Below are positions 2,743 to 48,517 of a stretch of 49,306 nt of DNA, piece after piece. The DNA is from a virus. Position numbers and translations under genes: made by a program. Under the pieces are notes generated by a model. It was given only the letters and a program-made list of their open reading frames with translations. It made no database searches and was not told the origin of the DNA. Every line of letters begins with the position of its first letter. Within the stretch, counting starts at the first letter, position 1. The stretch spans positions 1 to 49,306 of the IMG/VR virus record IMGVR_UViG_3300028608_000420; one strand, written 5' to 3'.

Positions 2743-2776
2743 ATAAATAAAGGAGAGAACCTGAAAGTTCTCTCCT
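2743..2776 (-). terminator. Rho-independent terminator overlapping a middle-promoter-like element
   Basis: On the minus strand a 9-bp stem GGAGAGAAC / GTTCTCTCC with a TTTCAG loop is followed by TTTATTTATG. It lies just after the phosphoesterase stop and should end that transcript. The same bases also read AGGAGA, 19 bases, TTTATTT, which fits the SPO1 middle promoter pattern and would drive the gene at 2436. A nearly identical copy occurs at 18921-18952. Confidence 0.75.
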
Positions 2777-9102: not shown

Positions 9103-9118
9103 ATCCCTCACCTCTCGA

Positions 9119-9153
9119 ATAATAAAAGCGAGGGAGTCAGAATCGACTCCCTC
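9119..9153 (-). terminator. Rho-independent terminator
   Basis: Minus-strand stem GAGGGAGTC / GACTCCCTC with a GATTCT loop, followed by GCTTTTATTATT. It lies just after the HD-hydrolase stop. Confidence 0.8.
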
Positions 9154-11219: not shown

Positions 11220-11311
11220 GAATACATTCCTCCTGTGGGCTTCGATACCGGAACGATGTCCTTCGATAACGCCCTGATATGTGTGGTTGAGCCTCAACGA
11301 CTCAGACACCT

Positions 11312-11342
11312 AATAAAATCGGGGCTGGGCAAACATTCCCCC
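11312..11342 (-). promoter_or_regulatory. Middle-promoter-like element for SSB
   Basis: Minus strand GGGGGA, 18 bases, TTTTATT. It is a weaker match to AGGAGA-N18-TTTNTTT than the copies before the polymerase or helicase, but it is placed about 95 bases before the SSB start. Confidence 0.4.
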
Positions 11343-15367: not shown

Positions 15368-15391
15368 TGTATCACACTCCCTTCTCTGATT

Positions 15392-15422
15392 AAATAAACT
15401 CCGAGTGCCGGAATCGTCCCTT
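15392..15422 (-). promoter_or_regulatory. Middle-promoter-like element for DNA polymerase
   Basis: Minus strand AAGGGA, 18 bases, TTTATTT, ending about 25 bases before the polymerase ATG. It shares GATTCC...ACTCGG...TTTATTTA with the element before the helicase gene, which supports a real conserved signal rather than a terminator. Confidence 0.55.
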
Positions 15423-15805: not shown

Positions 15806-15906
15806 TGTTGTATCCTCCTCAGGATTGTATGGGATAAAGGGTTATGGGAGTCGATCATGCAGTCAATACTGTGTGTCCGTTACTCCCTTGCGACCCTTTC
15901 TGACCT

Positions 15907-15954
15907 AAAAAAATCAGGCTTGCAAAACTTCTCACCAATCGGTGCCGTAAAGCC
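15907..15954 (-). terminator. Possible terminator after DUF1599-like gene
   Basis: Minus strand GGCTT ... AAGCC with a small CACC/GGTG helix inside, followed by TGATTTTTTTAGG. The short outer stem makes this less certain than the others. Confidence 0.45.
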
Positions 15955-18893: not shown

Positions 18894-18920
18894 ATTATAC
18901 CTCCTCATGAATGTTCACAT

Positions 18921-18952
18921 AAATAAAGGAGAGAACCCGAAAGTTCTCTCCC
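18921..18952 (-). terminator. Terminator/middle-promoter-like composite before TS-like gene
   Basis: Stem GGAGAGAAC / GTTCTCTCC followed on the minus strand by TTTATTTATG, after the Nudix stop. The same bases read GGGAGA, 19 bases, TTTATTT. It matches the copy at 2743 at 35 of 36 positions. Confidence 0.7.
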
Positions 18953-19544: not shown

Positions 19545-19546
19545 TC

Positions 19547-20134
19547 TCACATACCTCCATCTGGCAACATAGAGTCGCCAATGTGCTTGTATGCAGGAGT
19601 GCTCATTAGCTCAGCACGGAGACGGTCAAAGTGCTTATGAAGACGAGGGTTAGCATATTCCATCCACCGATGGCGCATACCCCGTACCAAGAAGTCCCTC
19701 ATGGTAGTAGCACTCATCTTGATGTTAGATCTGGATACGATGACCTCAGTGATAGCCTTGATGTCCTCAGGATCGAACCAGTTGCTACGAGCTTCATCAT
19801 TGCCATAGATCATAGCTTCCGGTGTCTTGTAGACCGCCTGTTCCACATTACGTAGAACATATCTGCCCCATTCAGGGTTGATATCATCCTCATGGGTCAT
19901 ATCAGGCAGAGCCTTAACGATGACGTTGGTTTCGTAAATCTCCTGTATCATTTCGATACGGGTAGCAATGTTGAATGGATTCCGTGGGCTATCCCCAGTT
20001 TCTTGAGCTGACCCCACTAGGATCAGTACACGATCGCACAGCTTAAGGGCTGTATTGATCATGTGTTCATGGCCAACGTGGATATGCTGGAACCGACCAA
20101 CCACCAATCCTAAATCATATGGTTTATGTGTCAT
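19547..20134 (-). CDS. nadM: Nicotinamide mononucleotide adenylyltransferase (NMNAT)
   Basis: 195 residues from the ATG at 20134, with AGGAGG 8 bases upstream; a longer in-frame start has no RBS. The HxGH nucleotidyltransferase motif is VGRFQHIHVGHEHM, with His in place of the usual Pro of GRFQPxHxGH. KMSATTMRDFL is the ISSTxxR-type ATP site. The NadM type is favoured by its short length. It makes NAD+ from NMN and ATP, taking the product of the Nampt encoded just upstream. Confidence 0.88.
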   Translation of the reverse strand: MTHKPYDLGLVVGRFQHIHVGHEHMINTALKLCDRVLILVGSAQETGDSPRNPFNIATRIEMIQEIYETNVIVKALPDMTHEDDINPEWGRYVLRNVEQAVYKTPEAMIYGNDEARSNWFDPEDIKAITEVIVSRSNIKMSATTMRDFLVRGMRHRWMEYANPRLHKHFDRLRAELMSTPAYKHIGDSMLPDGGM

Positions 20135-20138
20135 ATTA

Positions 20139-21554: not shown

Positions 21555-21594
21555 GAATCATCACTCCCCATATCGAAATGTCATCTTTCGACAT

Positions 21595-21626
21595 GAAAAA
21601 AGGAGAGAACCCGAAAGTTCTCTCCC
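21595..21626 (-). terminator. Terminator/middle-promoter-like composite before the NAD operon
   Basis: Stem GGAGAGAAC / GTTCTCTCC followed on the minus strand by TTTTTTC. It also reads GGGAGA, 19 bases, TTTTTTC, a weaker -10 than the copies at 2743 and 18921. It separates the gene at 21646 from the NAD operon. Confidence 0.7.
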
Positions 21627-23162: not shown

Positions 23163-23187
23163 CTGCCTGTGGCGAGAGAAGATTTTG

Positions 23188-23220
23188 TGTGTGACACTTT
23201 TTTCATAGTGTTATTACACA
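23188..23220 (+). repeat. Inverted repeat before the ParM-like gene
   Basis: TGTGTGACACT ... AGTGTTATTACACA forms an imperfect hairpin ending 3 bases before the GGGAGG of the actin gene. It could be an operator or centromere site for the ParR-like protein, or a translation control hairpin. Confidence 0.45.
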
Positions 23221-24304: not shown

Positions 24305-24305
24305 T

Positions 24306-24656
24306 ATGGCGAAGCAGCACACGTTCAAGACTACCAAAAAGACCACATGGTTGGATGGTATACTGGATGGTGCGGAAGATAAGAGTGACCTCATTCGTGA
24401 GCTACTCATCGAAGCCCTATCAATGAGAGGGATTGCCGCACCTAGCAGTCAGACAAAGGTAATACAATCGACACACATAAGTCAGACTCACGTAACACAA
24501 TCTTCCCCTACGGTTACGAAGACTGAGACATTTCACGTCACACCAACCCCTCATGGTAACATTGAGTACCTTGAGGAGCCGCAGATCACATCTAAGCCAG
24601 TAGCCGTAGAGGACTTGGACAAGAAGCTATCCGGAATGGATGATAACTTCTCCTAA
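24306..24656 (+). CDS. ParR-like centromere-binding adaptor
   Basis: 116 residues starting 1 base after the actin stop. Residues 10-45 (KTTWLDGILDGAEDKSDLIR then ELLIEALSMRG) look like the ribbon-helix-helix DNA-binding head of ParR. The rest is a low-complexity T/S/Q/H-rich linker and an acidic C terminus (EDLDKKLSGMDDNFS) that could contact the filament end, as ParR C termini do. Call rests on position and RHH-like pattern; confidence is moderate. Confidence 0.65.
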   Translation: MAKQHTFKTTKKTTWLDGILDGAEDKSDLIRELLIEALSMRGIAAPSSQTKVIQSTHISQTHVTQSSPTVTKTETFHVTPTPHGNIEYLEEPQITSKPVAVEDLDKKLSGMDDNFS

Positions 24657-24668
24657 GGAGGTTCTCTT

Positions 24669-24818
24669 ATGGACAATAAGAAAATGGAAGCCCGACCAAT
24701 CAGCAAGAAGACTCTGTATATCGCTTGCGGTATCACTGTCACCGTTGGGATGGGAGCCATCAAGCTAGTAGCCACAGCCATTAACAAGGTTGTGGCTGTT
24801 TTATTGGAGGTGAACTAG
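24669..24818 (+). CDS. 49-residue membrane protein
   Basis: Starts MDNKKMEARPISKKTLYIAC after AAGGAGG. Residues 15-45 form a hydrophobic span (LYIACGITVTVGMGAIKLVA). One of three consecutive tiny membrane proteins between ParR and the ATPase. Function unknown; a membrane partner of the ATPase is possible. Confidence 0.65.
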   Translation: MDNKKMEARPISKKTLYIACGITVTVGMGAIKLVATAINKVVAVLLEVN

Positions 24819-24819
24819 G

Positions 24820-24960
24820 ATGCACATAGTTCACATTGTCAAGACTGTAGCGAAATATGCTCTCATCCTAGGTCTGATCAATTACGTAGGAGGAGACTAC
24901 GTAGTAGGAATGCTTAAGGAGCTTGGGTATCACATAGGGGGAATGGTGGGTCATGGTTAA
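24820..24960 (+). CDS. 46-residue membrane-associated protein
   Basis: Starts MHIVHIVKTVAKYALILGLI, with GGAGGTGAACTAGG upstream inside the previous gene. A single hydrophobic region covers residues 9-30, then GMLKELGYHIGGMVGHG. Its end overlaps the next start by 8 bases. Not recognised. Confidence 0.6.
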   Translation: MHIVHIVKTVAKYALILGLINYVGGDYVVGMLKELGYHIGGMVGHG

Positions 24961-25234
24961 GTCCAACAGCACCACACGAACCCTACTATATACTGCCTTA
25001 TATGTTGGAATGTGCATCGCTGCCCCTGACCTGCCACTAGGAGCTTTAAAGCTAGTGGCGTCGTCCGTAGGGCAGTTTGTGTTTGGAGTAACAAAAGGTA
25101 CTGCTGGAAGCGTCATGCAGGAGCTACCTAATAAAGCCTTAGAAGATGTTAAGGACACTCCTAGAGCCCTCTTAGAATTACCTAAGAAGCTATGGGAAAA
25201 CCTTAACCCCTTCGATGGCAAGTTCAACGAATAG
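24953..25234 (+). CDS. Small membrane-associated protein
   Basis: 93 residues. The N-terminal half is hydrophobic (LLYTALYVGMCIAAPDLPLG, then ALKLVASSVGQFVFGVTKG), the C-terminal half amphipathic (LEDVKDTPRALLELPKKLWE). RBS GGGGGAATGG. Not recognised. It ends 10 bases before the ATPase start. Confidence 0.65.
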   Translation: MVKSNSTTRTLLYTALYVGMCIAAPDLPLGALKLVASSVGQFVFGVTKGTAGSVMQELPNKALEDVKDTPRALLELPKKLWENLNPFDGKFNE

Positions 25235-25244
25235 GAGGTGTGAT

Positions 25245-27953: not shown

Positions 27954-27954
27954 T

Positions 27955-28764
27955 ATGAGCCGTTACAACCGCCCCGAAGTGAAGCAGATTACTAAGCAAT
28001 GGGTAAAGGAGAACTGCAAGAATATCACAGAGAGGGACATGGGTCTGTTGCGTATACTGGCTGGCAACAAACGCAGGTTACTACGTAGGGATCAAATAGA
28101 ACTCCTCTATCCAGAGTTTGCTAGCACCGACAGGCTCAACAAGCGTATTAAGACCCTGTTCCAGATGCATGTCATAGACAAGGTCTACCCTCCGGTTGGC
28201 ATAGGAGAGGGCACAAGCAAGCAACACATATGCTTGGACAGGGCTGGTATCATCCTCCTTGAGCTGGACAAATATAACAAGCCTATCGGAGCTGACCGAT
28301 CCCTACCCCTTGGCTGGGAACATAAGGTGATGCTGAACGACTACGAGTGCTCTATGATTCAGATAATGAGAGACTTAGGAGGTGAAATACTACTATACGA
28401 AGTAGAGGAGCCACACCTTTATGGGGACAACAGGATCATCCCAGACATTATGTGTCTATTCAAGTGCAATGGAAAAGGATACGTATTTTTCATTGAGGTG
28501 GACATGGGCACAGAAGACATCCCCTACATCAAGTCGAAGCTGGAAGCCTATAAAGATTATTACATGTCCCAGCAATGGGTTAGTAAGCCCTGGGCTAAGA
28601 TGTTCAAGACACGTACCTTCCCCAGGGTACTGTTCCTAACCGAAAATGGCAGAGACAAGAGAGTCAGTACCCTAGAAGAATATACAAAGGACTCCAGCAT
28701 CAGGTTCATGTATGAGACTCATAATGGCTTTAGAAAACTCATGGAGGAAATTATAAAAGGCTAA
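27955..28764 (+). CDS. Replication-relaxation family protein (winged helix plus nuclease-like domain)
   Basis: 269 residues from the ATG at 27955 (GGAGGAGGGCTGAT upstream). The N terminus (ITERDMGLLRILAGNKRRLL then RRDQIELLYPEF) looks like the winged helix of Bacillota plasmid Replic_Relax proteins. The middle has PDIMCLFKCNGKGYVFFIEVD, a PD-(D/E)xK-like layout with D and E at suitable spacing but no clear lysine. Such proteins often occur next to VirD4/FtsK-like ATPases on plasmids; a relaxase or accessory role is possible. The stop lies in a palindromic terminator. Confidence 0.7.
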   Translation: MSRYNRPEVKQITKQWVKENCKNITERDMGLLRILAGNKRRLLRRDQIELLYPEFASTDRLNKRIKTLFQMHVIDKVYPPVGIGEGTSKQHICLDRAGIILLELDKYNKPIGADRSLPLGWEHKVMLNDYECSMIQIMRDLGGEILLYEVEEPHLYGDNRIIPDIMCLFKCNGKGYVFFIEVDMGTEDIPYIKSKLEAYKDYYMSQQWVSKPWAKMFKTRTFPRVLFLTENGRDKRVSTLEEYTKDSSIRFMYETHNGFRKLMEEIIKG

Positions 28765-29532: not shown

Positions 29533-30450
29533 CTATAGGAATAGGGTCTTACCGCAATGGTGGCATGGTCGCTCAGTCTCCGTATCCGTTAGGTAGAACT
29601 TACCGTCTTCCTCACCTTTCTTATACAGAACTGGACGCATGCCTAGAGGATGATCAGCAGACCCTACAGACTGGTGCCTTACTCTTGGGCTCTCATCCCA
29701 CTCTACCACTTCTATGGTAAGACGCTTCACCTTAATAAAATCGGAGAGGTCAGAAAGAAACTCCTGCTGGTATTTATTTCTTATCCTCCAAGTCCGATCG
29801 GGTACAGAGGGCTCATAGAAGTGCTTGAAGGACTCTAGGGACTTAGGTGATAAGGCTTCCCACTTCGTAACCTCTGATTTATATAGAAGGTCATGTATGG
29901 GCAAGAACATCACAATAACGTGTCCTACGTAGTTCTTCATCATCTCTACCATCTCAAATACATCTAGCTTACCTACAAGATGAGGGTACCAGGGTATCTC
30001 CAAGGTCTGGAAGATTTTCTTAGACTTTGCCATATGCATCATTTCGATCAGGGCAGAAGGGTCGGAAGCTTCTGGAGCTAGGCGATTCCTTATAAAAGGG
30101 TCTAGAAACTCCATAGAGACTTGGATGGAGGATCGTGGAACCTTTGATATCTCTGTGACCAGATCACTAGGAATGACCTTATTTGTACACACATTCACCG
30201 GAATCTTATACTCCAGGCATAGCTCTATCTTATCCCTACAATACTCCACAGGTTCAGAGAACATCACTGGCGTTAAGGTGTCAAGACCACTTAAGATCAA
30301 GTGTAACTCGTCAAAGGACAGCTTATCGGCGTTCCACACATAGGGAACGCCGTTCATGGATAACACCTGTATATCATGGCAGGTACAGAACTCTTTGTGT
30401 ATTGGTTTACGTAGCTTGATAGCCTTTCTAACCACCGGAACTCTTAACAT
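29533..30450 (-). CDS. Radical-SAM-like barrel protein lacking the cluster-binding motif
   Basis: 305 residues with GGAGGTAAGG upstream. The run of strands and loops matches a radical SAM barrel: VMFSEPVEYCRDKIELCLEY, VNVCTNKVI, SSIQVSMEFLDPFIRNRLAP, IFQTLEIPWYPHLVGKLDVF and VIVMFLPI. However the [4Fe-4S] cysteine motif CxxxCxxC is absent; only CTC occurs near residue 22. A CHHC motif at the very C terminus could bind zinc. It may be a non-catalytic relative or an enzyme of a different chemistry. The fold call is by pattern only. Confidence 0.5.
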   Translation of the reverse strand: MLRVPVVRKAIKLRKPIHKEFCTCHDIQVLSMNGVPYVWNADKLSFDELHLILSGLDTLTPVMFSEPVEYCRDKIELCLEYKIPVNVCTNKVIPSDLVTEISKVPRSSIQVSMEFLDPFIRNRLAPEASDPSALIEMMHMAKSKKIFQTLEIPWYPHLVGKLDVFEMVEMMKNYVGHVIVMFLPIHDLLYKSEVTKWEALSPKSLESFKHFYEPSVPDRTWRIRNKYQQEFLSDLSDFIKVKRLTIEVVEWDESPRVRHQSVGSADHPLGMRPVLYKKGEEDGKFYLTDTETERPCHHCGKTLFL

Positions 30451-30520: not shown

Positions 30521-30988
30521 TTATTCGTATGATTTCTTCAGCACCATGATAAGACGCATACGAGTGATGCTCTCATTACCATAGTCCTTCCACTCAACGC
30601 TACGCTGGGATGCTAATGCTTTCAGCTCAGGCAACGTCATAGCCTTAAAGTCTGGTGCTCCAGCAGGGTTACTGCCACCAGCCTTAGGGGTGGATGATGT
30701 CTTATTGGCTTCGGGCTTAGCCGATTGCTGGGTTTTGTTAGCCGCTGGCTTATTGTCAGCAGGCTTTTTAGCCTGGCTAGAAGGCTTGTTGGCTGTAGTG
30801 GCTGGTGTAGCTGCCGTTTCCGTTTTAGGCTTGACCTTAGGTGGCGCTATGAATGCTCCCTCTGCTTTCTGCTTACATTGCGCCTTTACGTCACATTGCT
30901 TGCACTCAGGAACAGTATCGTCATGGGCGATACCAAAACATGAACTGGCTTTAAGAGCTTCCAGTAACTTCGATTCTACGTTAATCAT
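30521..30988 (-). CDS. LEM/SAP-like C-terminal domain protein with Cys-rich N terminus
   Basis: 155 residues. The N terminus has CFGIAHDDTVPECKQCDVKA then QCKQ, a four-cysteine candidate metal site. Residues 50-110 are a low-complexity K/P/A/T/N linker. The last 45 residues (MTLPELKALASQRSVEWKDY then GNESITRMRLIMVLKKSYE) are a small helical domain like LEM/HeH or SAP modules, and the same pattern occurs twice in the protein at 32550. It is preceded by a promoter-like element. Probably a DNA- or nucleoprotein-binding accessory protein. Confidence 0.65.
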   Translation of the reverse strand: MINVESKLLEALKASSCFGIAHDDTVPECKQCDVKAQCKQKAEGAFIAPPKVKPKTETAATPATTANKPSSQAKKPADNKPAANKTQQSAKPEANKTSSTPKAGGSNPAGAPDFKAMTLPELKALASQRSVEWKDYGNESITRMRLIMVLKKSYE

Positions 30989-31029
30989 GTACCCACATTC
31001 CCCTCTCTTTTCGTTGAGCTGTACTGATT

Positions 31030-31062
31030 AAACAAATCGAGAGAACACAACTGTTCTCCCGA
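31030..31062 (-). promoter_or_regulatory. Middle-promoter-like element overlapping a terminator
   Basis: Minus strand GGGAGA, 18 bases, TTTGTTT; with A and TT at the extra positions of the SPO1 consensus. The stem CGGGAGAACAG / TGTTCTCTCG lies after the sigma-factor stop and is followed by ATTTGTTTAATC, so it may also terminate that transcript. It is placed to start transcription of the gene at 30521. Confidence 0.55.
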
Positions 31063-31076
31063 CTGTCCGTGTATGA

Positions 31077-31697
31077 TTACTGTTCCAAGGCAACTCTAGC
31101 CTTCTCCCTAATCTCAGCCATAGCGGTGTCATACTGCTTAGTCGTAATTCCCAAAGCACGAATGATATGTTTCATGCGAACGGTGTTATCCTTAGGTATA
31201 TTGGCTTTATGACCTTGGGACTTTATCATTTCCTTACGCTGGATGTCAGCCCATACCTCAAACAAAGTACGTTCACTAGGCTGGATGAGCTCCTCCAATA
31301 GGAGCCTAGATGTTTCACCGATCAGCATAGCCCTCAGGTTCGCTAATCCATCCTCTCTATACATACGCTCCACTGTATCTTCGGTATTCTTGTCCTCAAT
31401 AAAGTGAGCGGCATCGTCAATGTCCATAGTAGACTTACGGCTCCTTGCACATTGCTTTACTCTGCGGAATAATGACTTACGGAAGATAGGGCCAAACTCA
31501 TCCATGTCCTTTCCACGCTCTACACACCACTTTTGCCAGCAGTCGTATAGCTTAATCATACCTTCCTGACAAAGGTCATCATAGGATATAGACGAGTCCA
31601 CTCTGGTATTCTCTATCTGCTGTCTAGCAGCAAACTTGATTAGGTTTTCAAACTGCGCTACCGCTTGCTCCCATGTAATCTTCAGCGCTATCTGCAT
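31077..31697 (-). CDS. Phage sigma-like transcription factor
   Basis: 206 residues with GAGGGGGACAG upstream. Residues 10-90 look like sigma region 2 (YDDLCQEGMIKLYDCWQKWC, then IFRKSLFRRVKQCARSRKST). The C terminus (NTVRMKHIIRALGITTKQYD then TAMAEIREKARVALEQ) has a helix-turn-helix-like region 4. It differs from the sigma-like protein at 5423 and could be a second stage-specific factor, as SPO1 uses gp28 and gp33/gp34. Sigma identity is inferred. Confidence 0.75.
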   Translation of the reverse strand: MQIALKITWEQAVAQFENLIKFAARQQIENTRVDSSISYDDLCQEGMIKLYDCWQKWCVERGKDMDEFGPIFRKSLFRRVKQCARSRKSTMDIDDAAHFIEDKNTEDTVERMYREDGLANLRAMLIGETSRLLLEELIQPSERTLFEVWADIQRKEMIKSQGHKANIPKDNTVRMKHIIRALGITTKQYDTAMAEIREKARVALEQ

Positions 31698-32228: not shown

Positions 32229-32471
32229 TCACATAGGCTCCCCATCAATTGAGTAGTACTGGGGATTGTACACAGCTCTGCCAAGAGACTCCTCATGCAG
32301 GTACATACCATCATGTGTGAATCCCTTAAAGGTGCTCCTAGTAAACTGATCCTTAGGTATGTGACCTGACCCTTTGAACTGCCTACGTTGCTCATCCATG
32401 TGCTCCTTCATACCTTCCTTAGCATCCTCGTGCGCTTTTACAAACAGTAAGCTTAACAGAACACGCATCAT
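32229..32471 (-). CDS. Small hypothetical protein
   Basis: 80 residues from the ATG at 32471 with AAAGGGGGAAG upstream. The first 12 residues are hydrophobic (MMRVLLSLLFVK), too short for a typical signal peptide, and the rest is charged (HEDAKEGMKEHMDEQRRQFK). Not recognised. A non-coding 220-base stretch separates it from the gene at 31710, where TTGCCA-N17-CAAAAT near 32080 may be a promoter. Confidence 0.6.
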   Translation of the reverse strand: MMRVLLSLLFVKAHEDAKEGMKEHMDEQRRQFKGSGHIPKDQFTRSTFKGFTHDGMYLHEESLGRAVYNPQYYSIDGEPM

Positions 32472-32492
32472 AGAGACTTCCCCCTTTGGCAA

Positions 32493-32524
32493 TAAAAAAG
32501 AGGATGACCCGAAAGTCATCCCCT
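32493..32524 (-). terminator. Terminator with promoter-like reading
   Basis: Stem GGATGAC / GTCATCC with loop TTTCGG, then TCTTTTTTATT on the minus strand, after the stop at 32550. It also reads AGGGGA, 19 bases, TTTTTTA, a weak version of the middle promoter pattern in front of the gene at 32229. Confidence 0.7.
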
Positions 32525-32549
32525 TAAGTGCCATTGGTAGGATTACCGA

Positions 32550-33239
32550 TTAGTCAGCCAGAGCCCCTACCGTCTTGAGAGCCATAATAGCCCGCATACG
32601 GTCAATCGGCTCGTTGCCGGACTTCTTAACGTTGAGCTTACGCTCGGTAATCATCTCAAACAGCTTGTCGGTAGTAAGATCACCGAACTTACCCTTCTTC
32701 TTGGAGTCGCCCTTAGGCTTGAACTGATCAGGGAAGAAGTGGCGGTGCATAGACTGTGCGATACGCATCCGGTGTATGGAAGCGTGGTACGTACCAGTCC
32801 ATTCCAGCTTCAACCCCTTAGCGAAGTACTCCAGCGTAGGAGTGTCGATATCCTTGATGAACTCCTTAAGCTCATCTAGTGTCTCGAACTCTGGTAAGGC
32901 TTCGGCTAGCTCTTCCGGCGTAGCCTTGATTTCCTCTTCTCCTAGAGCAGAGTACTCGCCGCCTTTACCGCCGTTAGCAGCCCCAGCACCTTCATCGGTA
33001 CCACCAGCCCCCTTATCGTCTCCACCGCCGTTAACATCTTTATCGCCCTCTGCGCCATCCCCACCGCCAGTACCAGTACCTCCCTCATCCAATGGGATAA
33101 GCTGTACTTGGTCAGCATACTTGCCGCCTTCGGATACGTCCTTGGTCGTTACTTTTGCTACCCCGAGAAGAGTGGCTACCTCTGCCAGCGTAGTCGCTAC
33201 GCTCTCACCAATTTGATACCCTTGCTTTGCTACCGTCAT
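32550..33239 (-). CDS. Acidic/Gly-rich protein with two LEM/SAP-like domains
   Basis: 229 residues. Residues 50-100 are a Gly/Asp/Ala-rich disordered linker. Two similar helical segments follow: PTLEYFAKGLKLEWTGTYHA then SIHRMRIAQSMHRHFF (about 135-170), and TDKLFEMITERKLNVKKSGN then EPIDRMRAIMALK (about 190-225). Both match the C-terminal segment of the protein at 30521 (pattern W/K...I-x-RMR-x2-x-A/M). Possibly DNA- or protein-binding modules in replication or transcription. A terminator follows. Confidence 0.65.
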   Translation of the reverse strand: MTVAKQGYQIGESVATTLAEVATLLGVAKVTTKDVSEGGKYADQVQLIPLDEGGTGTGGGDGAEGDKDVNGGGDDKGAGGTDEGAGAANGGKGGEYSALGEEEIKATPEELAEALPEFETLDELKEFIKDIDTPTLEYFAKGLKLEWTGTYHASIHRMRIAQSMHRHFFPDQFKPKGDSKKKGKFGDLTTDKLFEMITERKLNVKKSGNEPIDRMRAIMALKTVGALAD

Positions 33240-34082: not shown

Positions 34083-35051
34083 TTACTTCTTCGGTTCGGC
34101 ACCTACAGCAGGAATCTGGATCATAGTAGACCCATTACCCTGTACAAGAGTATCCGGCAGGTTAACCTTACCACTAGCCAGTGCGTCGATCCATGCTTTC
34201 TCATTCTGAACCTTCATAAGCTCAATCTGAGTCTGCATAGTAGCCTGACGTGCCGTGGCGCTAGCCGCTTCCTGAGTGGCTACCTTAACCTCGTTCTCAG
34301 CCTTCTCTAGCTCCCGCTTATTGGTTTCAGCCTGTGCCGCAGTAGTCTCAGCTTCAATAAACTTCTTATTGATAGCTTCCTGAATCTCTGCTTGCAGGTA
34401 CTTCATGTCCCCAATGTAGCCGATGTTCGACAAGGTGATACCCTTAGCCTTGAAGTAAGGCTCCACCTGCTTACGCACATGGTCGATTACGGAGGTTTTA
34501 TCCGCACGAATATCAGCAATAGTCATGGTGGAGTATTTCTCCAACAGTACAGAGCCGATCTTATTTCGTACCTCCGAGTCAGTAACCTCTGCTAGAGGTT
34601 TGCCCGCATATTGGTACAGGAAGGTAGCTGTATCCTCTTCAAGGATTTGAGCCGTAGCGGACATACCTTGATTGAACTTTACGGAGTCCTTAGACTCACC
34701 GATAAAAGCACCCTCACTAGCCCATTCGCGGGTAGCTGGAGCACGATCTACCACGATTACACGAACCGTATCCATCCACTCACCAGACCACCCACGGCGA
34801 CCAGTTTGTACCCATTTATGCGGTACCTCGATCCGCTTAGTGGCTACCTGAGCTGCTTTAAGGAAGTCTACAGACTCAAACTGCGCTTGGTCTGATGTAG
34901 CTCCCTCCAGTGGCACTACAAACGCCGTCTGGTTAGCTTCAATGGTTACGAACTCCGGTGTGTTGTAAGGCTTACGGCAACCTGCCAGCACCACTACCAC
35001 CAGTGTTAGCATCATCAACGTTAGTACGAGTTTCAATTTCCTGTTCTTCAT
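34083..35051 (-). CDS. SPFH/prohibitin-like lipoprotein
   Basis: 322 residues with a lipoprotein signal peptide: KNRKLKLVLTLMMLTLVVVV then LAGC as lipobox, so the mature protein would be anchored on the outside of the membrane. Residues 35-200 resemble the SPFH/Band 7 domain (ATSDQAQFESVDFLKAAQ, then VRVIVVDRAPATREW, VTDSEVRNKIGSVLLEKYS). A long coiled coil follows (EAETTAAQAETNKRELEKAE). SPFH proteins form membrane scaffolds. For a phage this is unusual; it could alter the host envelope or protect the infected cell. An adjacent small membrane protein may be a partner. Confidence 0.75.
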   Translation of the reverse strand: MKNRKLKLVLTLMMLTLVVVVLAGCRKPYNTPEFVTIEANQTAFVVPLEGATSDQAQFESVDFLKAAQVATKRIEVPHKWVQTGRRGWSGEWMDTVRVIVVDRAPATREWASEGAFIGESKDSVKFNQGMSATAQILEEDTATFLYQYAGKPLAEVTDSEVRNKIGSVLLEKYSTMTIADIRADKTSVIDHVRKQVEPYFKAKGITLSNIGYIGDMKYLQAEIQEAINKKFIEAETTAAQAETNKRELEKAENEVKVATQEAASATARQATMQTQIELMKVQNEKAWIDALASGKVNLPDTLVQGNGSTMIQIPAVGAEPKK

Positions 35052-35345: not shown

Positions 35346-35790
35346 TTGGTACACCCCCTTCTACTACTTCGGCAGTAGCTTCGGCTGTGTCTTCCTCTTT
35401 TTCTTTTTGTGCTTCCGGCTCTGGAGGTCTGCCGTACATCAGCTCTACAAAAGGCAACGATAGCTCATTGAGCTTCTCATCTGTAGCCAGTCCCAAGTCC
35501 TTGACAAGGGATAGCAGAGTGTTTGTGGTGATATACAGCATACGAAGCTTCTCGTCCTGTTGGGCGGTAGCGCCTTTTACCAAGTCGAATGCTTCCTTAC
35601 GTGTAATCATGCCACTCCAGTAAGCATGCTCCTGCTTACGAGCCTTCTCCATCTGCTTGGCAGTAGGTTGGTGTACTCCACCTGCTTCTGCTACAGCAGC
35701 GTTAACTGCTGCTTGCTTGCCGCTTTCAGCAGGTAAGGTGCCTAGCACCTCAGCGGAAACCTTAGGTTTGTTAGCGTTACGCTTAGCCAT
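35317..35790 (-). CDS. Hypothetical protein
   Basis: 157 residues, alanine-rich start (QAAVNAAVAEAGGVHQPTAK), helical middle (AYWSGMITRKEAFDLVKGAT) and an acidic tail (EPEAQKEKEEDTAEATAEVV). No family recognised. RBS GGAGGTGCC. It overlaps dUTPase upstream and the membrane-protein gene downstream, so all are likely one transcript. Confidence 0.65.
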   Translation of the reverse strand: MAKRNANKPKVSAEVLGTLPAESGKQAAVNAAVAEAGGVHQPTAKQMEKARKQEHAYWSGMITRKEAFDLVKGATAQQDEKLRMLYITTNTLLSLVKDLGLATDEKLNELSLPFVELMYGRPPEPEAQKEKEEDTAEATAEVVEGGVPIDADNSTEA

Positions 35791-36340
35791 TTACAGGCAC
35801 CTCCGTCTCCGCTACACCGTTAGCCACTTGGCTATTGCCTGAGCTACCGAAACCGCTTACCCCACGAACCGTCTCAGACAGGTCGCTAGGGGAATCCACT
35901 GGTGTCAGTACCGCCTTGATACGCGGCAGGATAACCATTTGGAACAGGTATTCTCCCCGCTTAACTGTTACAGGCGCTTCGCCTACGTTGGTGACCACTG
36001 TGCGTATATTGCCACGATAGTCAGGGTCGATAGTGCGACACAACAGGTCTAGCAACAGCTTAGAGGTGCTGCTACGGGAGTCCAGAAAACCTAATACGGT
36101 TTCAGGCATTTCCACATAGATGCCAGTCTTAAGCATAATGCGCTGACCAGGCTGGATGGTTACCTCCGCTACCTCAGGGTCGTAGAACGGAATGTCCAGA
36201 CCAGCGGCATGAGGATTTGCATAGAAGAGTCTCGGAGTTACTACATCCGGCTCTACTTTCAGCTCATCCGTAACCACGGTAGCATCTTCCTTAATTGCTT
36301 TCTCCCACTCGGAGTGGTACTTAATTGGTACTTGCCACAT
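35783..36340 (-). CDS. dut: dUTPase (trimeric type)
   Basis: 185 residues with AAGGAGGAG upstream. All five dUTPase motifs are seen: AAGLDIPF (1), LDSRSSTSK (2), IDPDYRGNIRTVV (3, with D and Y for uracil binding), GEYLFQMVI (4) and RGVSGFGSSG (5). It converts dUTP to dUMP, keeping uracil out of DNA and feeding the TS-like enzyme. An N-terminal extension of about 35 residues is unusual but minor. Confidence 0.93.
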   Translation of the reverse strand: MWQVPIKYHSEWEKAIKEDATVVTDELKVEPDVVTPRLFYANPHAAGLDIPFYDPEVAEVTIQPGQRIMLKTGIYVEMPETVLGFLDSRSSTSKLLLDLLCRTIDPDYRGNIRTVVTNVGEAPVTVKRGEYLFQMVILPRIKAVLTPVDSPSDLSETVRGVSGFGSSGNSQVANGVAETEVPVNG

Positions 36341-36411
36341 GTGCTCTCCTCCTTCAGCGATTTCAGACTAACAAAAGCCGACACAGGGAAAATCGTCTCC
36401 CTCCGTAAATC

Positions 36412-38849: not shown

Positions 38850-39026
38850 TCATGGCACTATCAGACCGTCCTTAACGCATATACCTTCCAACTGTCCAGT
38901 GCTGACGTATTCAGCGCCCTTACTTTTGCACTCAGATACGTCATGCTGCACTGAACATCTAGCCAGCATCAACACTAATACCAACAGCCCAATTAGGACT
39001 AATATGGGGAAGCCATTTTGCTTCAT
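38850..39026 (-). CDS. 58-residue membrane-anchored protein
   Basis: Starts at an ATG inside the SbcC stop (ATGA) with GAGGAGGATATGGC upstream. Residues 6-22 form a hydrophobic signal anchor (PILVLIGLLVLVLMLARC), and residues 24-58 hold three cysteines in all (ARCS, SECK, GICV), compatible with an extracellular disulphide-bonded peptide. Not recognised. Confidence 0.6.
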   Translation of the reverse strand: MKQNGFPILVLIGLLVLVLMLARCSVQHDVSECKSKGAEYVSTGQLEGICVKDGLIVP

Positions 39027-40957
39027 GCCATATCCTCCTCGATAGCTGTCTTACCAGCAGACTTAATCATGCGCACCGACTTACTGAATAGCTGCTTAAG
39101 GGAGTCATTATGGGTAATGACCATGATAGTACCACACTGGCTAGCCTTCTCTTTAAGGAGCTGGATAACGTTCTCACAGCCTATACCATCCAGACCCTCA
39201 AAGCACTCGTCATAGACGATCAGGTCTAGCTTCTTGCTAGTACGAGACAGTACCAAGTCCTGTAGTGCCATGTTAATGGCTATATCCACACGGCGCTTCT
39301 CTCCACCGGAGTTACCGTCATAGCCTTCATCACCATTTTTGTTATCAACGTCTACCTTGAACTTATCCTTCTTCTGTCCCTTATTGGCGCCGGACTTAAC
39401 TTCCTGCTGGGTATTGAAGGTAACCTCAATGGAGTTTCCTGCCAGCTTGGTTAGGTAGTAGTTGCATCGTTCATTCAGGAATGGGGTAACGGAATCAAGC
39501 AATACGCTTTTGATACCCTGGTTACCATAGGCTTCCACCCAGAACTTGTATTTATCGCGCTCTACTTCCTTCTCAGCTACTTCCTTCTCATGAATCTCTA
39601 TGCAACCGTCGATGTTCTTAATCTTGAATAGAGTGTCCTCAATAACACTGGTGTACGTAGTGTTCATAAGGTCAATCTGCTCTTGAATAAGCTTGTGGGT
39701 ACGGTTGATGGAGTCATCCAGTGACTTACGCTTGTTCTGTATCTGCTTTATCTCACTGTTGATCTGTAAGATATTCCAGTTTATATCCTGTAGATCATTC
39801 TCAGCCTTAGGCTTACCTTCCAACCGCTTGTTAGACTTCTCAATGAGTCCTTCCAACGTCCCTATCTCTTGACGCTGAGACTCCAGCTCCGTTTTAGATT
39901 TTGCGATAGCATCTTCTAGGTGCTTTTCTATGTGGGAGGTGTCGTCCAAAGGCAAAGCCTGACCGCAGGTTTCGCACGATTTAGGGATATTCTTGCCGTT
40001 ACGGATGTCGTGTAGCTTTTGTGTATCTGTTTCTGCCTTCCGTTTCAGCCGCATACCCTCATTCATAGCAGACTTCTGTAAACCCACTAGCTCATTCCTT
40101 TGATCCTCAAACTCCTTAAAGGAGTCTACACGTTCCTTGGCCTTAGGTACTAGCCGCTCAAGAGTAGCCCTCTCGCTTACCAGGTCATCAGGGTGCTCCA
40201 GAGCGTCTATCTCAGTTTGGTAGCCATCTAACTCGGCTTCCAGTTCCGTTATACGGGCTGATGTCTTCTCCCCTAGCTCAGCTTCCTTAGCCTGAAGTTC
40301 CTCTACCTGCTGCTCCCAGTTAGCTTTGATACCCCTGTCCTTGTTTAGATCAGATTCCAGACCATTGATCTCGGTATTAAGACCGTCTACCTTCTCTTTA
40401 GCCTTCTCCTGTGCCAGACGGAAGATATCAATCTGTAGCATCTGCTCCAGTATCTTCTTCTGCTCAGCGTCCGTAGTAGATGCGAACAGCTTAGTGATAC
40501 CCTGACCAAACATAACAGAGTTGGTAAACGTCAGATAGTCCATGCCTATAATCTCTTCTATCATGGCTGTAGTGTCCGTGTCTGATTTACCAGTTATGTT
40601 CTCTTCATTACGGAACAGTAGAACATGGTTGCCATGCTGGGCATGCTTACGATGCCTTGTGATCTCATATACATCACCAGTCACATCATCAATGAGCTGT
40701 ATGCAGACCCTCGCGTTCTTACCAACCTTACGATTGATAACACTGTCAGCCTTCAGTCCACGTATTGTCTGTCCAAAGAAGCCCCATGTAAGAGTCTCTG
40801 AGAAGAACGTAGACTTACCTGACCCATTACTTTCAAATGTATCCTCATCTTGGTTGTCGCCCGTAATAAGCACAAGACCCTTATCGTTTAGGGTAGTTGT
40901 GGCTTGGGCAATGGACATAAAGTTCTCGGCGGCTAATAAACCTACCTTAAGTGCCAT
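39023..40957 (-). CDS. sbcC: SbcC/Rad50-like recombination ATPase
   Basis: 644 residues from the ATG at 40957 (GAGGGGTGATTTT upstream). The ABC-type head is split by a coiled coil: Walker A ESNGSGKSTFF near residue 45, a zinc hook CETC near 325, signature SGGEKRRVDIAI near 550 and Walker B IVYDECFEGLD near 580. It pairs with the SbcD-like nuclease at 41999 (T4 gp46/47 equivalents) to process DNA ends in recombination-dependent replication. Confidence 0.95.
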   Translation of the reverse strand: MALKVGLLAAENFMSIAQATTTLNDKGLVLITGDNQDEDTFESNGSGKSTFFSETLTWGFFGQTIRGLKADSVINRKVGKNARVCIQLIDDVTGDVYEITRHRKHAQHGNHVLLFRNEENITGKSDTDTTAMIEEIIGMDYLTFTNSVMFGQGITKLFASTTDAEQKKILEQMLQIDIFRLAQEKAKEKVDGLNTEINGLESDLNKDRGIKANWEQQVEELQAKEAELGEKTSARITELEAELDGYQTEIDALEHPDDLVSERATLERLVPKAKERVDSFKEFEDQRNELVGLQKSAMNEGMRLKRKAETDTQKLHDIRNGKNIPKSCETCGQALPLDDTSHIEKHLEDAIAKSKTELESQRQEIGTLEGLIEKSNKRLEGKPKAENDLQDINWNILQINSEIKQIQNKRKSLDDSINRTHKLIQEQIDLMNTTYTSVIEDTLFKIKNIDGCIEIHEKEVAEKEVERDKYKFWVEAYGNQGIKSVLLDSVTPFLNERCNYYLTKLAGNSIEVTFNTQQEVKSGANKGQKKDKFKVDVDNKNGDEGYDGNSGGEKRRVDIAINMALQDLVLSRTSKKLDLIVYDECFEGLDGIGCENVIQLLKEKASQCGTIMVITHNDSLKQLFSKSVRMIKSAGKTAIEEDMA

Positions 40958-40973
40958 AAAATCACCCCTCGGT

Positions 40974-41011
40974 AAAAAGAAAACGTGAGAGTCAGAATTG
41001 ACCCCCACGTT
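40974..41011 (-). terminator. Rho-independent terminator
   Basis: Minus-strand hairpin AACGTGGGGGTCA / TGACTCTCACGTT with ATTC loop and a T-rich tail (TTCTTTTT). It follows the stop of the gene at 41019. Confidence 0.75.
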
Positions 41012-41999: not shown

Positions 42000-43060
42000 T
42001 ACATCACACTCCTGATAAGCTCCAGTCCTACTTCCTTGGCTTCTGGGTTATTCTCGTCAGCATACTTGCTTACGATCTCCTCAAAGCCCATACCGATTTT
42101 TACATCGCTCCGCTCTTGCTCTACATACTCTCTGCGGAGCTCTACTTTGTAGAGAAGGTTAGCAGGGATTAAACCCTGTTGATACGCCTCCAACTGCTCT
42201 GGAGTGACCACGAATCGTACGTAGTCCCCATTGGCGGCTAACTCCCTTAGGAGTTCATCATGAACCGCTGTAGGATGTCCAGTAATAGTGTGAAACTTGG
42301 GACTGGGGATTGGCACGAAGTCGATATCATACCTCTTGCTCGTATCCACAACCCAAAAGCCCTTATCTTCACCCTCGTCCCCAAAGCTATGCTCCAGTGG
42401 AGCACCGCAATAGAAGACATGCTCATATCCTCCTATCTTTTGAGCCTTATGAAAGTGCCCACCGATTATATACTTGAATATATCCGGTCTTAAGTCCTCC
42501 ACATCAAAGGCGTCTGCCATAGGGTAGTTACCACTTCCGACGAACGCCCCCGAAACACCTAGATGGAATAATAAAATCTGCGGGATGTCTTTTTTCTCCA
42601 CCCCTGCAATGAAGTCCTTAACCAACTGAGCATTCTTGCTATAAGGGGCTAGAACTAACTCCACCAAGCCATTTTCACCACTGATCATATGGGTGCCGAC
42701 GGTGTCATACACCCAGACGTCCTTTAGCTTCTTAAAGGCGTGTATGGAGTTCTCCGGCACATCAGAGTTATCATACTGGTCATGGTTGCCAGCAATCATG
42801 ATGACCTCAATACCATCACCATAGAACTTCTCTATCTCGTCGTAGATAGCATTGAAGACCACCGTATCAACCCTACCGCGAACGTGATACAAGTCCCCAG
42901 AGAATAGGAAGTAGTTAATACCGTTCTCCTTACACCACGTTCTAATGTAGGAAAGGCTTGCCACGATGTGGTCAAGCCGTGTAGAGCCAGTAATATCGGA
43001 CTTGTCATTAAACTCCTTGTAGATGTGACCGTGAAGGTCTGCGGATGCTGCTAACCTCAT
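41999..43060 (-). CDS. sbcD: SbcD/Mre11-like exonuclease subunit
   Basis: 353 residues with TAGGAGGGGTATAA upstream. Metallophosphoesterase blocks in order: SADLHGH, SGDLYH, AGNHDQYD, LLFHLGVSG and GGHFHKAQ. It cleaves DNA ends with the SbcC-like ATPase encoded four genes downstream. It starts inside the end of the YyaC-like gene. Confidence 0.93.
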   Translation of the reverse strand: MRLAASADLHGHIYKEFNDKSDITGSTRLDHIVASLSYIRTWCKENGINYFLFSGDLYHVRGRVDTVVFNAIYDEIEKFYGDGIEVIMIAGNHDQYDNSDVPENSIHAFKKLKDVWVYDTVGTHMISGENGLVELVLAPYSKNAQLVKDFIAGVEKKDIPQILLFHLGVSGAFVGSGNYPMADAFDVEDLRPDIFKYIIGGHFHKAQKIGGYEHVFYCGAPLEHSFGDEGEDKGFWVVDTSKRYDIDFVPIPSPKFHTITGHPTAVHDELLRELAANGDYVRFVVTPEQLEAYQQGLIPANLLYKVELRREYVEQERSDVKIGMGFEEIVSKYADENNPEAKEVGLELIRSVM

Positions 43061-43592
43061 TTATACCCCTCCTAAGTTTTCGTTCTGTCTCCCTCTTGCA
43101 CTTAATAAAAGAAACGATCCCCTCACCAATAGTCTCCTGCATGCGCATTACAAGACTCAGCCTAGTGTTCTGGAGTACGAAGTACTCCATGAAGCCACCA
43201 ACATTCACTATACCAGTGATACTGGCGTGACCCCATTCCCCTAAATCCTTGTTTACGCCAGCCCCAGGCTTTAAAGGCTTATCAGACATGCTAATGTATC
43301 CCACAGAGGACACCTGCCCAAGACAAGCATCAATGGCTATGACGAACTTATTCTTAGGTATTTTGGTTTCTGATAGGTTCATACCGTGGACAGGATTATC
43401 CAGATTTCCTAGGTGACTAATACGCTTCTTGCTAAGGTAGGAACCTACCAGTGGCCCAAGTGAGTCACCAGTAGACCTATCAGTACCAATACAAAGGAAC
43501 AGTATATCCTTTACTAACACGTTGGGAGGTACAATGTCGTGTAGAGCCTTGTATACTTGGTGAGATTCGTCCATTCCTTTATAGTATTTCAT
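43008..43592 (-). CDS. yyaC: YyaC-like (DUF1256) putative peptidase
   Basis: 194 residues from the ATG at 43592 (GAAAGGGTGATTGTT upstream). The sequence follows the YyaC family, GPR-like sporulation proteins, closely: FLCIGTDRSTGDSLGPLVGS, HLGNLDNPVHGMNL, IAIDACLGQ, KPGAGVNKDLGEWGHASITG and IVNVGGFMEYFVLQNTRL. In Bacillus this protein belongs to spore formation. A phage copy suggests handling of host sporulation or a re-used peptidase. The C-terminal 50 residues are basic and phage-specific. Confidence 0.85.
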   Translation of the reverse strand: MKYYKGMDESHQVYKALHDIVPPNVLVKDILFLCIGTDRSTGDSLGPLVGSYLSKKRISHLGNLDNPVHGMNLSETKIPKNKFVIAIDACLGQVSSVGYISMSDKPLKPGAGVNKDLGEWGHASITGIVNVGGFMEYFVLQNTRLSLVMRMQETIGEGIVSFIKCKRETERKLRRGINEVSSIRRPSRSHLQGV

Positions 43593-43597
43593 AACAA

Positions 43598-43834
43598 TCA
43601 CCCTTTCTTAGGCTTGAGCACCTTAGCCAGCTCTGAGCCCACCATATGGATTTCCCATTCTAACTTAGCATGACCCTTTTTCATTCCCTTTGCTATTGCT
43701 TTGTGGATGTCATCTGCCGTACATACACGACCTTTGACTGTTCTATATTCAAAGCTAGACAGTACTTCGTCCATCGACAATGATCCCCGTATCGCCGCCC
43801 ATGCCATCTGTGAGGTTGAGTTGTATCTTGGCAT
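43598..43834 (-). CDS. Small hypothetical protein
   Basis: 78 residues from the ATG at 43834 (GGAGGG 10 bases upstream, inside the YkgJ-like gene). Basic and helical (DDIHKAIAKGMKKGHAKLEW). It overlaps the upstream gene by 80 bases. Not recognised. Confidence 0.6.
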   Translation of the reverse strand: MPRYNSTSQMAWAAIRGSLSMDEVLSSFEYRTVKGRVCTADDIHKAIAKGMKKGHAKLEWEIHMVGSELAKVLKPKKG

Positions 43835-46607: not shown

Positions 46608-47135
46608 TTAGTATAACTCGGCTATTAGCCTTCCTACTTGAGTCACAGCTTCCGGATACAGTATGTTATATACTGGAACCTTGAGAGCTTCAGCCACTCG
46701 TATACCTTGACCAGTGCCGCCTAGATCAAATAGATTGTGTGGACAAGCTATCACAAAGTCTACTGGTTCTGGATCAGCCACTATGCCATAGTTGCGAGCA
46801 TGTAAGCTCTTAGCTCCGTCAGATAGTGCTCTGTAGTTAGGGTGATACCATTCAACACTTTTTGTCCACTGAGGGTGTATCTTCTTGTTGTAGGTGGTCA
46901 CATGAGCCTTCTCAGGTATCAATTTCTGGTTAAAGCCCTTCCAGGGTAGGAATAGGTGGAGCTTGGATGGGTCTCCCTTAGAAGACCCATACATAGCTGC
47001 CTGATCACACCCATAAGCCGCTCCGGTAGAAACCTCTACACCCAAACAAGTTAGTTCCTCAGCCCATAGGCTCATTAACTCATAATGGGTCGGGGATGGA
47101 CGACGAGTACCAATTATAGCAACCCTACGCCGCAT
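46608..47135 (-). CDS. SLOG/DprA-like Rossmann protein
   Basis: 175 residues; a Rossmann start MRRRVAIIGTRRPSPTHYEL, then GVEVSTGAAYGCDQAAMYGS, LHLFLPWKGFN, ACPHNLFDLGGTGQGIRVAE. The GTR, STGAAxGxD and GTG patterns match the DprA/LOG group, which binds nucleotides or single-stranded DNA. Its 11-base overlap with the helicase gene suggests coupling. No strong RBS is visible. Loading or nucleotide sensing in recombination is possible. Confidence 0.75.
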   Translation of the reverse strand: MRRRVAIIGTRRPSPTHYELMSLWAEELTCLGVEVSTGAAYGCDQAAMYGSSKGDPSKLHLFLPWKGFNQKLIPEKAHVTTYNKKIHPQWTKSVEWYHPNYRALSDGAKSLHARNYGIVADPEPVDFVIACPHNLFDLGGTGQGIRVAEALKVPVYNILYPEAVTQVGRLIAELY

Positions 47136-48459
47136 CGTTGTAGATAGCCGTCATTGTGGCTGTTGGGTAATCTATGTCACCATCTAAGGTAATACTAGCT
47201 TCCCCATCCCTGTGCTTGGCTATATGCCACCTCATGACACCATCACGTTTTTCCTCCACAGTCTGACACAGAGCGCACATGAAGTCGGCAATGTTAGCCT
47301 TGTTAAAGGCTTCCGCAAGGTCACCGATTGTGATAACCTTCTTATCCAAGGCACCTCTGTTAGCCTGTGATGCTGTCCAGACTGGGCAAGAGTACTCATC
47401 ACCCAAGTCACGCAGGTCAAGGTACACAGACTCCAGCTCGAAACGCTTATCAGCATATGTGCGTCTGGATTGAATGAGATCACCATAGTCAACGATGATA
47501 AGATCAGGCTTAAAGCCTTTCTCCATCCACAAGCGAGTAAGGTGAGAACGGATAGTATCGACAGTGCAATCGCCTGTCTTGTACTTCTTGATAATGAGCT
47601 TACCTTTGTTGTGCTTCTGAATATTCATCAGAGCGGTAAGAACCTTCTCAGAGTTATCCCTCATGTAGTTGAAGTCTTTCTTAGTCATACGTTGGTCATA
47701 ACGTTTCGATACCTGCTTCTCAGGCATTTCGAGCGTGTAGTGAACAACATTGAAGCCATCTAACACGGCTCCTGCACCTATGTTGATCAGTGCAAATGAC
47801 TTACCACGGTTTGGAGGGGCTATAATGACTCCAAGCTCACCATCACCTAGACCACCCTTGAGAACCTTATCAAGCCCGCTGAGTCCAGTTGGCACACGAC
47901 GAATACCATCAGTGCCAGTGGCATACAGTTTCATACGCTCCTCTGCTTCTGCAAAGTAGTCTGTACCTAAGTCTGATAAGTCGTCACCGACTCTAAGGGC
48001 TTTACCAACCCTCTCGTTGATAGATGCAAAGTCACCCCTCTCTAAGTCATCCACAGACTCCAAGATAGCGTGACGCATAGCGGCATCTTTACCAAACTGT
48101 ACCACAGAGTCCTTGATATACTCAGCGTCGGACAGGTCAGCGTCCAGAATATCAGCAATACAATCTTCGTATTGGTGGCGTATATCTTTCTTCTTCTTGT
48201 TGGGGTCTACCAGCTTCCGCATCTCTTCCCAGAGTACTTCCATGGTAGGAGCATTTACAGGTGTCTTCTTAAGCGAAGCCCTCTTTAGCTCATCCTCATA
48301 GTAGTCAATGAGGATGCGTGCCATGTCAATATGGACTTCCTTACGAAAGTACTTAGGCTGCAATACGTCCTTGTAGGCTGCAAAAAACGTCTTATCCCTC
48401 GCCATCATGGACAGTATCTTCATCTGGAATCCATCAGCAAACTGATACACATCAGACAT
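47125..48459 (-). CDS. DnaB-like replicative helicase
   Basis: 444 residues with AAGGAGGTGG upstream. A helical N-terminal domain is followed by the RecA-type motor: Walker A APPNRGKSFALI near 212-223, ADPGDLI-like Walker B LIIVDYGDLI near 318-327, CPVWTASQANRG (arginine/Q region) and KHRDGEAS. This is the T4 gp41/DnaB group that unwinds DNA at the fork and works with the primase at 36412. A promoter-like element precedes it. Confidence 0.93.
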   Translation of the reverse strand: MSDVYQFADGFQMKILSMMARDKTFFAAYKDVLQPKYFRKEVHIDMARILIDYYEDELKRASLKKTPVNAPTMEVLWEEMRKLVDPNKKKKDIRHQYEDCIADILDADLSDAEYIKDSVVQFGKDAAMRHAILESVDDLERGDFASINERVGKALRVGDDLSDLGTDYFAEAEERMKLYATGTDGIRRVPTGLSGLDKVLKGGLGDGELGVIIAPPNRGKSFALINIGAGAVLDGFNVVHYTLEMPEKQVSKRYDQRMTKKDFNYMRDNSEKVLTALMNIQKHNKGKLIIKKYKTGDCTVDTIRSHLTRLWMEKGFKPDLIIVDYGDLIQSRRTYADKRFELESVYLDLRDLGDEYSCPVWTASQANRGALDKKVITIGDLAEAFNKANIADFMCALCQTVEEKRDGVMRWHIAKHRDGEASITLDGDIDYPTATMTAIYNDAA

Positions 48460-48485
48460 AGTTGTGCCACCTCCTTTTCACCGCT

Positions 48486-48517
48486 AAATAAACCGAGTGA
48501 GGCGGGAATCCTCTCCT
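48486..48517 (-). promoter_or_regulatory. Middle-promoter-like element for the helicase gene
   Basis: Minus strand AGGAGA, 19 bases, TTTATTT, ending about 27 bases before the helicase ATG. It contains GATTCC and ACTCGG as in the polymerase element. A short TGAGG/CCTCA stem could also let it act as a weak terminator for the gene at 48523. Confidence 0.6.

Follow-up and report, generated by a model that had tools for sequence, protein, structure and literature searches.

Probable SPO1 gp28-class middle promoters in a herellevirus fragment and their apparent fusion with intrinsic terminators

The 49.3-kb virus fragment studied here (the window, meaning the whole stretch of DNA that was analyzed) carries a series of short elements that probably represent middle promoters of the SPO1 gp28 class, a large minority of them fused with intrinsic terminators, so that the stop of one unit and the start of the next would share one sequence. 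Across the phage group, about a quarter of the gp28 promoters appear to double as terminators. We infer gp28 binding, start sites, termination efficiency and timing from sequence. The original prediction had taken the elements for plain promoters; promoters they seem to be, but that reading was incomplete, as about half of the sites in the window are also intrinsic-terminator hairpins. The comparison defines the middle regulon for a classic group of sigma-cascade phages, with a consensus better than two hexamers, and makes an old question directly testable in SPO1: how phage units that lie close together are kept separate while being switched in time.

The virus fragment and its sigma factors

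On sequence grounds, the window is a piece of an SPO1-like herellevirus, a virus akin to Bacillus phage SPO1. The minus strand runs collinear with both SPO1 (gp20.1 to gp34.x) and Exiguobacterium phage vB_EalM-132 (EalM-132). It had been proposed that one of two sigma-like proteins encoded here drives a middle-gene regulon; the likely driver is the gp28 orthologue (31077-31697), rather than the gp34-like protein (5423-5974). SPO1 gp28 is said to read the consensus AGGAGA-N17/18-TTTNTTT. It is the middle sigma factor of SPO1 (PMC3594737). The genes that matter for the argument are as follows.

31077-31697, minus strand: gp28 orthologue, presumed middle sigma factor (54-55% identity to SPO1 gp28, 54% by tblastn, E = 1.5e-71), syntenic between gp26.1 and gp27
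30521-30988, minus strand: gp27 (the LEM-like gene of the original prediction), adjoining the gp28 orthologue
17691-18908, minus strand: gp29 orthologue, TS-like, a thymidylate synthase homologue (SPO1 annotation, dUMP hydroxymethylase)
15494-15805, minus strand: TF1
12545-15367, minus strand: DNA polymerase
47125-48459, minus strand: helicase, SPO1 gp21.1 orthologue
5423-5974, minus strand: gp34 orthologue, late sigma factor (64% identity to SPO1 gp34; Sigma70_r2)
5971-6276, minus strand: gp33 orthologue
35783-36340, minus strand: dUTPase gene
39023-41008, minus strand: SbcC-like gene
32550-33239, minus strand: gp25.1-like gene
20139-21554, minus strand: nicotinamide/nicotinate phosphoribosyltransferase-like gene (NAD cluster)
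19547-20254, minus strand: NMN adenylyltransferase-like gene (NAD cluster)
18978-19550, minus strand: weak Nudix match (NAD cluster)

The NAD salvage cluster (18978-21554, minus strand) lies inside the SPO1 gp29.2-gp29 region and resembles phage NAD-rebuilding pathways. The sole plus-strand operon of the window (23237-28764) encodes a ParM-like actin together with a protein of 912 aa (63% to SPO1 gp27.4) and one of the Replic_Relax type (58% to gp27.3). The homologous SPO1 gp27.9 operon is likewise inverted (48%, 63% and 58% identity), which suggests that this plasmid-type segregation/mobilisation cassette is old in the SPO1-like group. A Band_7/SPFH-domain protein (34083-35051) and a deoxynucleoside kinase (3946-4599) are also encoded. 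The longest-ORF starts at 18908 (17691-18908) and 32534 (32229-32534) abut or overlap elements, and ribosome-binding sites there indicate later ATGs.

The promoter signal and its distribution

Five elements had been listed on the minus strand as AGGAGA-N18/19-TTTNTTT (48486-48517, 15392-15422, 31030-31060, 18921-18952 and 2745-2776). All five are present, each with the two boxes of an SPO1 gp28-type promoter, but the strict form holds only at 48486-48517 and 2745-2776; 18921 and 31030 depart from it by one base (GGGAGA) and the polymerase site (15392) by two (AAGGGA). Spacers are 18 or 19 by the present count, in SPO1 too, versus 17/18 in the quoted consensus, probably a difference in counting. 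A third strict match, 43108-43138 (AGGAGA-N18-TTTCTTT), was absent from that list; it is probably due to chance, because it lies inside an ORF (43008-43601) and scores low (12.6 bits) in the model described below. Thus, the bare consensus alone is not decisive and can mislead. The motifs GATTCC and ACTCGG do occur in both the helicase and polymerase spacers, as had been pointed out, but they are out of register (ACTCGG stops 0 versus 2 bases short of the -10 box) and are not conserved in relatives; a shared functional element (a protein-binding or translational operator) was rejected on these grounds.

A two-block promoter model was built from 25 sites upstream of orthologues in other phages, none of them from the window. 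The related phages were recovered via polymerase and helicase; a direct scan of viral contigs with gp28 gave no new gp28 relatives. Positions that had played no part in picking the training sites proved to be conserved: a TTT in the spacer, a C/G ahead of the -10 box and a start region resembling GTGA; the A that follows the -10 box had counted at half weight in the picking. In full, the signal reads aGGAGA-(a/g)AA-n-TTT...(C/G)nC-TTTwwTTA-(a)GTGAA, with a spacer of 18/19. When the whole window was searched, a check that the original prediction had called for, 11 sense sites and one antisense site scored at least 17 bits, versus 0.03 per strand in dinucleotide shuffles. Ten of the 11 sense sites are intergenic, including 32524, which overlaps merely an over-extended ORF start. 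Sense sites at this threshold precede the helicase, polymerase, gp27, the gp29-like synthase, TF1, dUTPase and the NAD operon. The predicted sites are given below (hairpin energies in kcal/mol).

48485..48517, minus strand: helicase promoter, gp28-type (AGGAGA 48512-48517, N19, TTTATTTA 48485-48492; 21.8 bits)
15391..15422, minus strand: DNA polymerase promoter, gp28-type (AAGGGA, N18, TTTATTTA; 17.8 bits)
31029..31060, minus strand: putative fused terminator/promoter between gp28 and gp27 (GGGAGA, N18, TTTGTTTA; 20.8 bits; hairpin -18.1)
18920..18952, minus strand: putative fused terminator/promoter before the TS-like gene (GGGAGA, N19, TTTATTTA; 32.0 bits; perfect hairpin)
2744..2776, minus strand: putative fused terminator/promoter between 2789-3865 and 2436-2714 (AGGAGA, N19, TTTATTTA; 36.6 bits, the top-scoring site of the window; hairpin -17.6; a 97% repeat of 18922-18951)
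21594..21626, minus strand: putative fused terminator/promoter before the NAD operon, 20139-21554 and later genes (GGGAGA, N19, TTTTTTCA; 27.7 bits; hairpin -18.3)
9120..9151, minus strand: putative fused terminator/promoter between 9159-9956 and 8854-9111 (GGGAGT, N18, TTTTATTA; 27.5 bits; hairpin -17.9)
32492..32524, minus strand: putative fused terminator/promoter after the gp25.1-like gene (AGGGGA, N19, TTTTTTAT; 19.6 bits; hairpin -16.8)
40975..41006, minus strand: weaker fused candidate before the SbcC-like gene (GGGGGT, N18, TTTCTTTT; 14.4 bits; hairpin -18.7)
36369..36401, minus strand: dUTPase promoter, gp28-type (GGGAGA, N19, TTTTGTTA; 29.2 bits; counterparts in G004 and G003)
15906..15937, minus strand: TF1 promoter, gp28-type, without a strong hairpin (TGGTGA, N18, TTTTTTTA; 26.3 bits)
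11311..11342, minus strand: probable gp28-type promoter before 10293-11309 (GGGGGA, N18, TTTTATTA; 15.4 bits)
23174..23205, plus strand: ParM-like operon promoter, gp28-type (GAGAGA, N18, TTTTTTCA; 18.7 bits)

Weaker elements suspected before the NAD operon (21594-21626) and the gene at 32229 (32492-32524) are real by this model. A 22-bit gp28-type site (29733-29765) inside the gp27.1-like gene (29533-30450) may be an internal promoter or a chance match.

A scan upstream of orthologues showed that sites recur at orthologous positions, before helicase, polymerase, gp27, TS, TF1, primase and dUTPase. Orthologous sites were found for helicase in EalM-132, G004, G003, G007 and G009, and for polymerase in EalM-132, G004, G003 and G009, plus the held-out contigs L001/L002. 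The TF1 site recurs in eight relatives, 62-113 nt from the start, and always has N18 across the nine phages; SPO1, phi18, SPO1L1 and SP8 carry a site before the orthologue of 10293-11309. At the gp28/gp27 boundary, the window has GGGAGA-N18-TTTGTTTA, SPO1 has AGGAGA-N18-TTTGTTTT and EalM-132 has TGGAGA-N18-TTTATTTA. Moreover, the lone plus-strand site (23174) precedes the lone plus-strand operon, and a 15.0-bit minus-strand site at 97389 of SPO1 precedes the homologous inverted gp27.9 operon.

Genome-wide, about 19-31 sites score 15 bits or more in each of SPO1, EalM-132, G004, LysYB1, G007 and G009, with almost none antisense, and contigs kept out of training (L001, L002 and L011) also show sites. 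Listeria phage A511, in which a search for a gp28 relative found none, has one site of at least 17 bits on both strands together. The gp28 model is enriched several hundredfold and in a strand-specific manner. This enrichment, together with the orthologous sites, argues that the earlier reading of the elements as SPO1-like middle promoters was largely correct, gp28 being the sigma factor; a middle regulon over replication and NAD genes is likewise consistent with sense-strand sites before replication, nucleotide and NAD genes. The late promoter consensus of SPO1 is CGTTAGA-N17-19-GATATT (PMC3601020). Late promoters read by gp34 were rejected, since the window has three weak 11/13 matches to this consensus, none at the listed sites; the late consensus does not separate the strands in SPO1 either.

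Hairpins within the promoters

A repeat search and a terminator scan revealed that three of the five elements first noted (2745, 18921 and 31030) are near-perfect to perfect inverted repeats followed by T-rich tails, and that these three, together with 21596 and 32494, make up one family of hairpins with T-tails. The fused sites in the window (2745, 9120, 18921, 21594, 31029 and 32492) have energies of -16.6 to -18.3 kcal/mol and 6-7 T in 8. The helicase site (48485..48517) forms an imperfect hairpin of -12.5 kcal/mol with upstream bases included. Of the 141 sites in seven gp28 phages, 33 form a hairpin of -10 kcal/mol or lower between the -35 and -10 boxes, not all of them independent events, since several G009 hairpins are near copies; the expectation is 3.1 (maximum 9) with the 3' half of the spacer shuffled and 6.9 (maximum 13) with halves swapped between sites. 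SPO1 has putative fused sites too, for example at 113269 and 100509. The hairpins have 8-11 pairs, contain GC, and have a loop of 3-6 nt and a U-rich tail, right after stop codons. Phage G009 has a number of almost identical fused hairpins (GGAGTGACTTTTATGAGTCGCTCC-TTTTATTA and its variants) at separate loci (L066-L073), as if spreading by copying, and the window holds three copies of its own fused hairpin.

Pairing is maintained as the stems change. Among 16 N19 hairpins from six phages, a comparison that spans loci and phages, 96.6% of cells pair, the covariation score is 0.642 versus 0.241 shuffled (0/500) and at most 0.165 when slid, and there are 36 double-change cells versus 11.7 shuffled. 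At non-hairpin sites, the inner stem positions are mostly unpaired. Taken together, these two results indicate that both promoter boxes and pairing are kept while stem bases change. Of 86 open promoters, 29 have a distinct terminator in the preceding 150 nt, as against none of the 33 fused sites (p = 2e-5; similar for 60-300 nt); at random positions the figure is about 6%. All 33 fused sites have positive terminator d-scores, with a median of 28 versus 20 for other terminators, which, with the missing upstream terminators, argues that the hairpin replaces a separate terminator. Termination may be partial, because -10 tails such as TTTATTTA are imperfect U-tracts.

Could the hairpin sites instead be ordinary intrinsic terminators with a purine-rich 5' arm and a T-tail that happen to look like the gp28 consensus, the promoters being the non-hairpin sites only? 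We consider this unlikely. Such terminators would indeed show a perfect hairpin and T-tail directly after stop codons; the copy at 21596 ends in a standard T6 tail, and the gp29.2-gp29 gap of EalM-132 and SPO1 holds a plain terminator. However, 38 of 363 sense hairpin terminators of gp28 phages carry the promoter signal, versus 4.5 (maximum 9) when base pairs were permuted within each stem with hairpin, loop and tail kept, and the signal is found in 0 of 232 antisense and 0 of 67 A511 hairpins. Fused sites also keep the downstream sequence proper to promoters. A GTGA-type downstream motif follows 19 of 44 terminators with a -35-like arm versus 38 of 271 others (p = 2e-5); this motif belonged to the trained model, but here the terminators were picked by arm only. 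Furthermore, at gp27 and TS the relatives have open promoters at the matching position: among the copies compared, the gp28/gp27 element is a hairpin in the window only, SPO1 (90196), EalM-132, G004 and phi18 having a promoter and no hairpin, and the TS locus has open promoters in G004, G003, G009 and LysYB1. For 2745, 18921 and 31030, plain terminators were a serious candidate and were rejected by the stem-permutation test and the orthologous open promoters. The sites at 32524 and 41006, with their weak -10 boxes, may be plain terminators; at the gp25.1 boundary (32492-32524), a hairpin occurs in the phages checked, good promoter boxes are limited to the window and G004, and the G004 site is fused.

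Less probable still is a reading in which all sites are promoters only and the dyad is a DNA recognition feature (e.g. a two-sided binding site or a cruciform) rather than an RNA terminator. The hairpin arms do fall on the -35 box and on the stretch next to the -10 box, but hairpin energies are bimodal, most promoters have no dyad, the second, upstream terminator often seen at open sites is never seen at fused ones, and the stems contain G-U pairs, acceptable in RNA but not in a DNA dyad. That the elements are promoters for host sigma-A, or arise by chance where intergenic DNA is rich in A/T, is hardly credible and is statistically refuted, since, apart from one good sigma-70-like match near the helicase site (48551-48522), such matches are no commoner than in shuffles, as against the strand-specific enrichment of the gp28 model.

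A proposed switch and its comparison with known systems

In the fused promoter/terminator reading, host core RNA polymerase with the phage gp28-type sigma (31077-31697) would read the elements. The 5' arm of the hairpin would comprise the -35 box and first spacer bases, and the 3' arm the last bases of the spacer; the conserved spacer TTT would be the loop, with the -10 box as the U-tract. As long as gp28 is absent, transcripts running in from the gene upstream would fold into the hairpin, and polymerase would halt within the -10 box; after gp28 synthesis, this same stretch of duplex would be bound as a promoter, with the next unit starting a few bases further downstream. The new transcript would lack the hairpin, because the latter lies upstream of the expected start. 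More tentatively, polymerase stopped at the -10 box might take up gp28 and start again where it stands, a terminate-and-reinitiate hand-over that would make each unit boundary an early-stop, middle-start switch; we regard this as possible but doubtful. In vitro, a polymerase that has stopped can remain on the DNA and, given sigma, initiate again at promoters close by (PMC6978380), and a hand-over to gp28, if true, would give a natural setting for reinitiation so far known in vitro. No precedent for overlapping terminator and promoter elements was found in the open literature, which is weak evidence as most older SPO1 papers lay outside the search.

The elements resemble SPO1 gp28 middle promoters in their boxes, in the orthologous sigma gene and in their orthologous positions, and the same model finds SPO1's own sites. 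They differ from the quoted SPO1 consensus in that the spacer TTT, the C/G before and the A after the -10 box, and the GTGA-like start are also present, the spacer is 18/19, and a quarter carry a terminator hairpin. With bacterial intrinsic (Rho-independent) terminators, they share the hairpin, loop, U-rich tail, place after stop codons and positive d-scores. In contrast to those terminators, a -35 box dictates the sequence of the fused 5' arm, and the U-tract has to match a -10 box, with a promoter start region after it. The virion RNA polymerase of phage N4, a single-subunit enzyme, reads an extruded DNA hairpin promoter. The N4 promoters likewise contain a hairpin, but the promoter here is of the sigma-type -35/-10 kind, and most copies have none. 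Tandem terminator-then-promoter boundaries also insulate one unit from the next. The TF1-pol boundary is of this kind: in the window, SPO1 and EalM-132, a distinct terminator is followed by an open promoter, and in the window the separate TF1 hairpin lies just upstream of the polymerase promoter (15391..15422). Another case is Kayvirus p98, which comes immediately after t97 (PMC7698491). In such boundaries the signals are separate and adjacent, whereas the fused elements are one sequence. Kayviruses, members of the same family, were reported to be without middle transcription (PMC7698491), which fits a restriction of this promoter class to gp28 phages.
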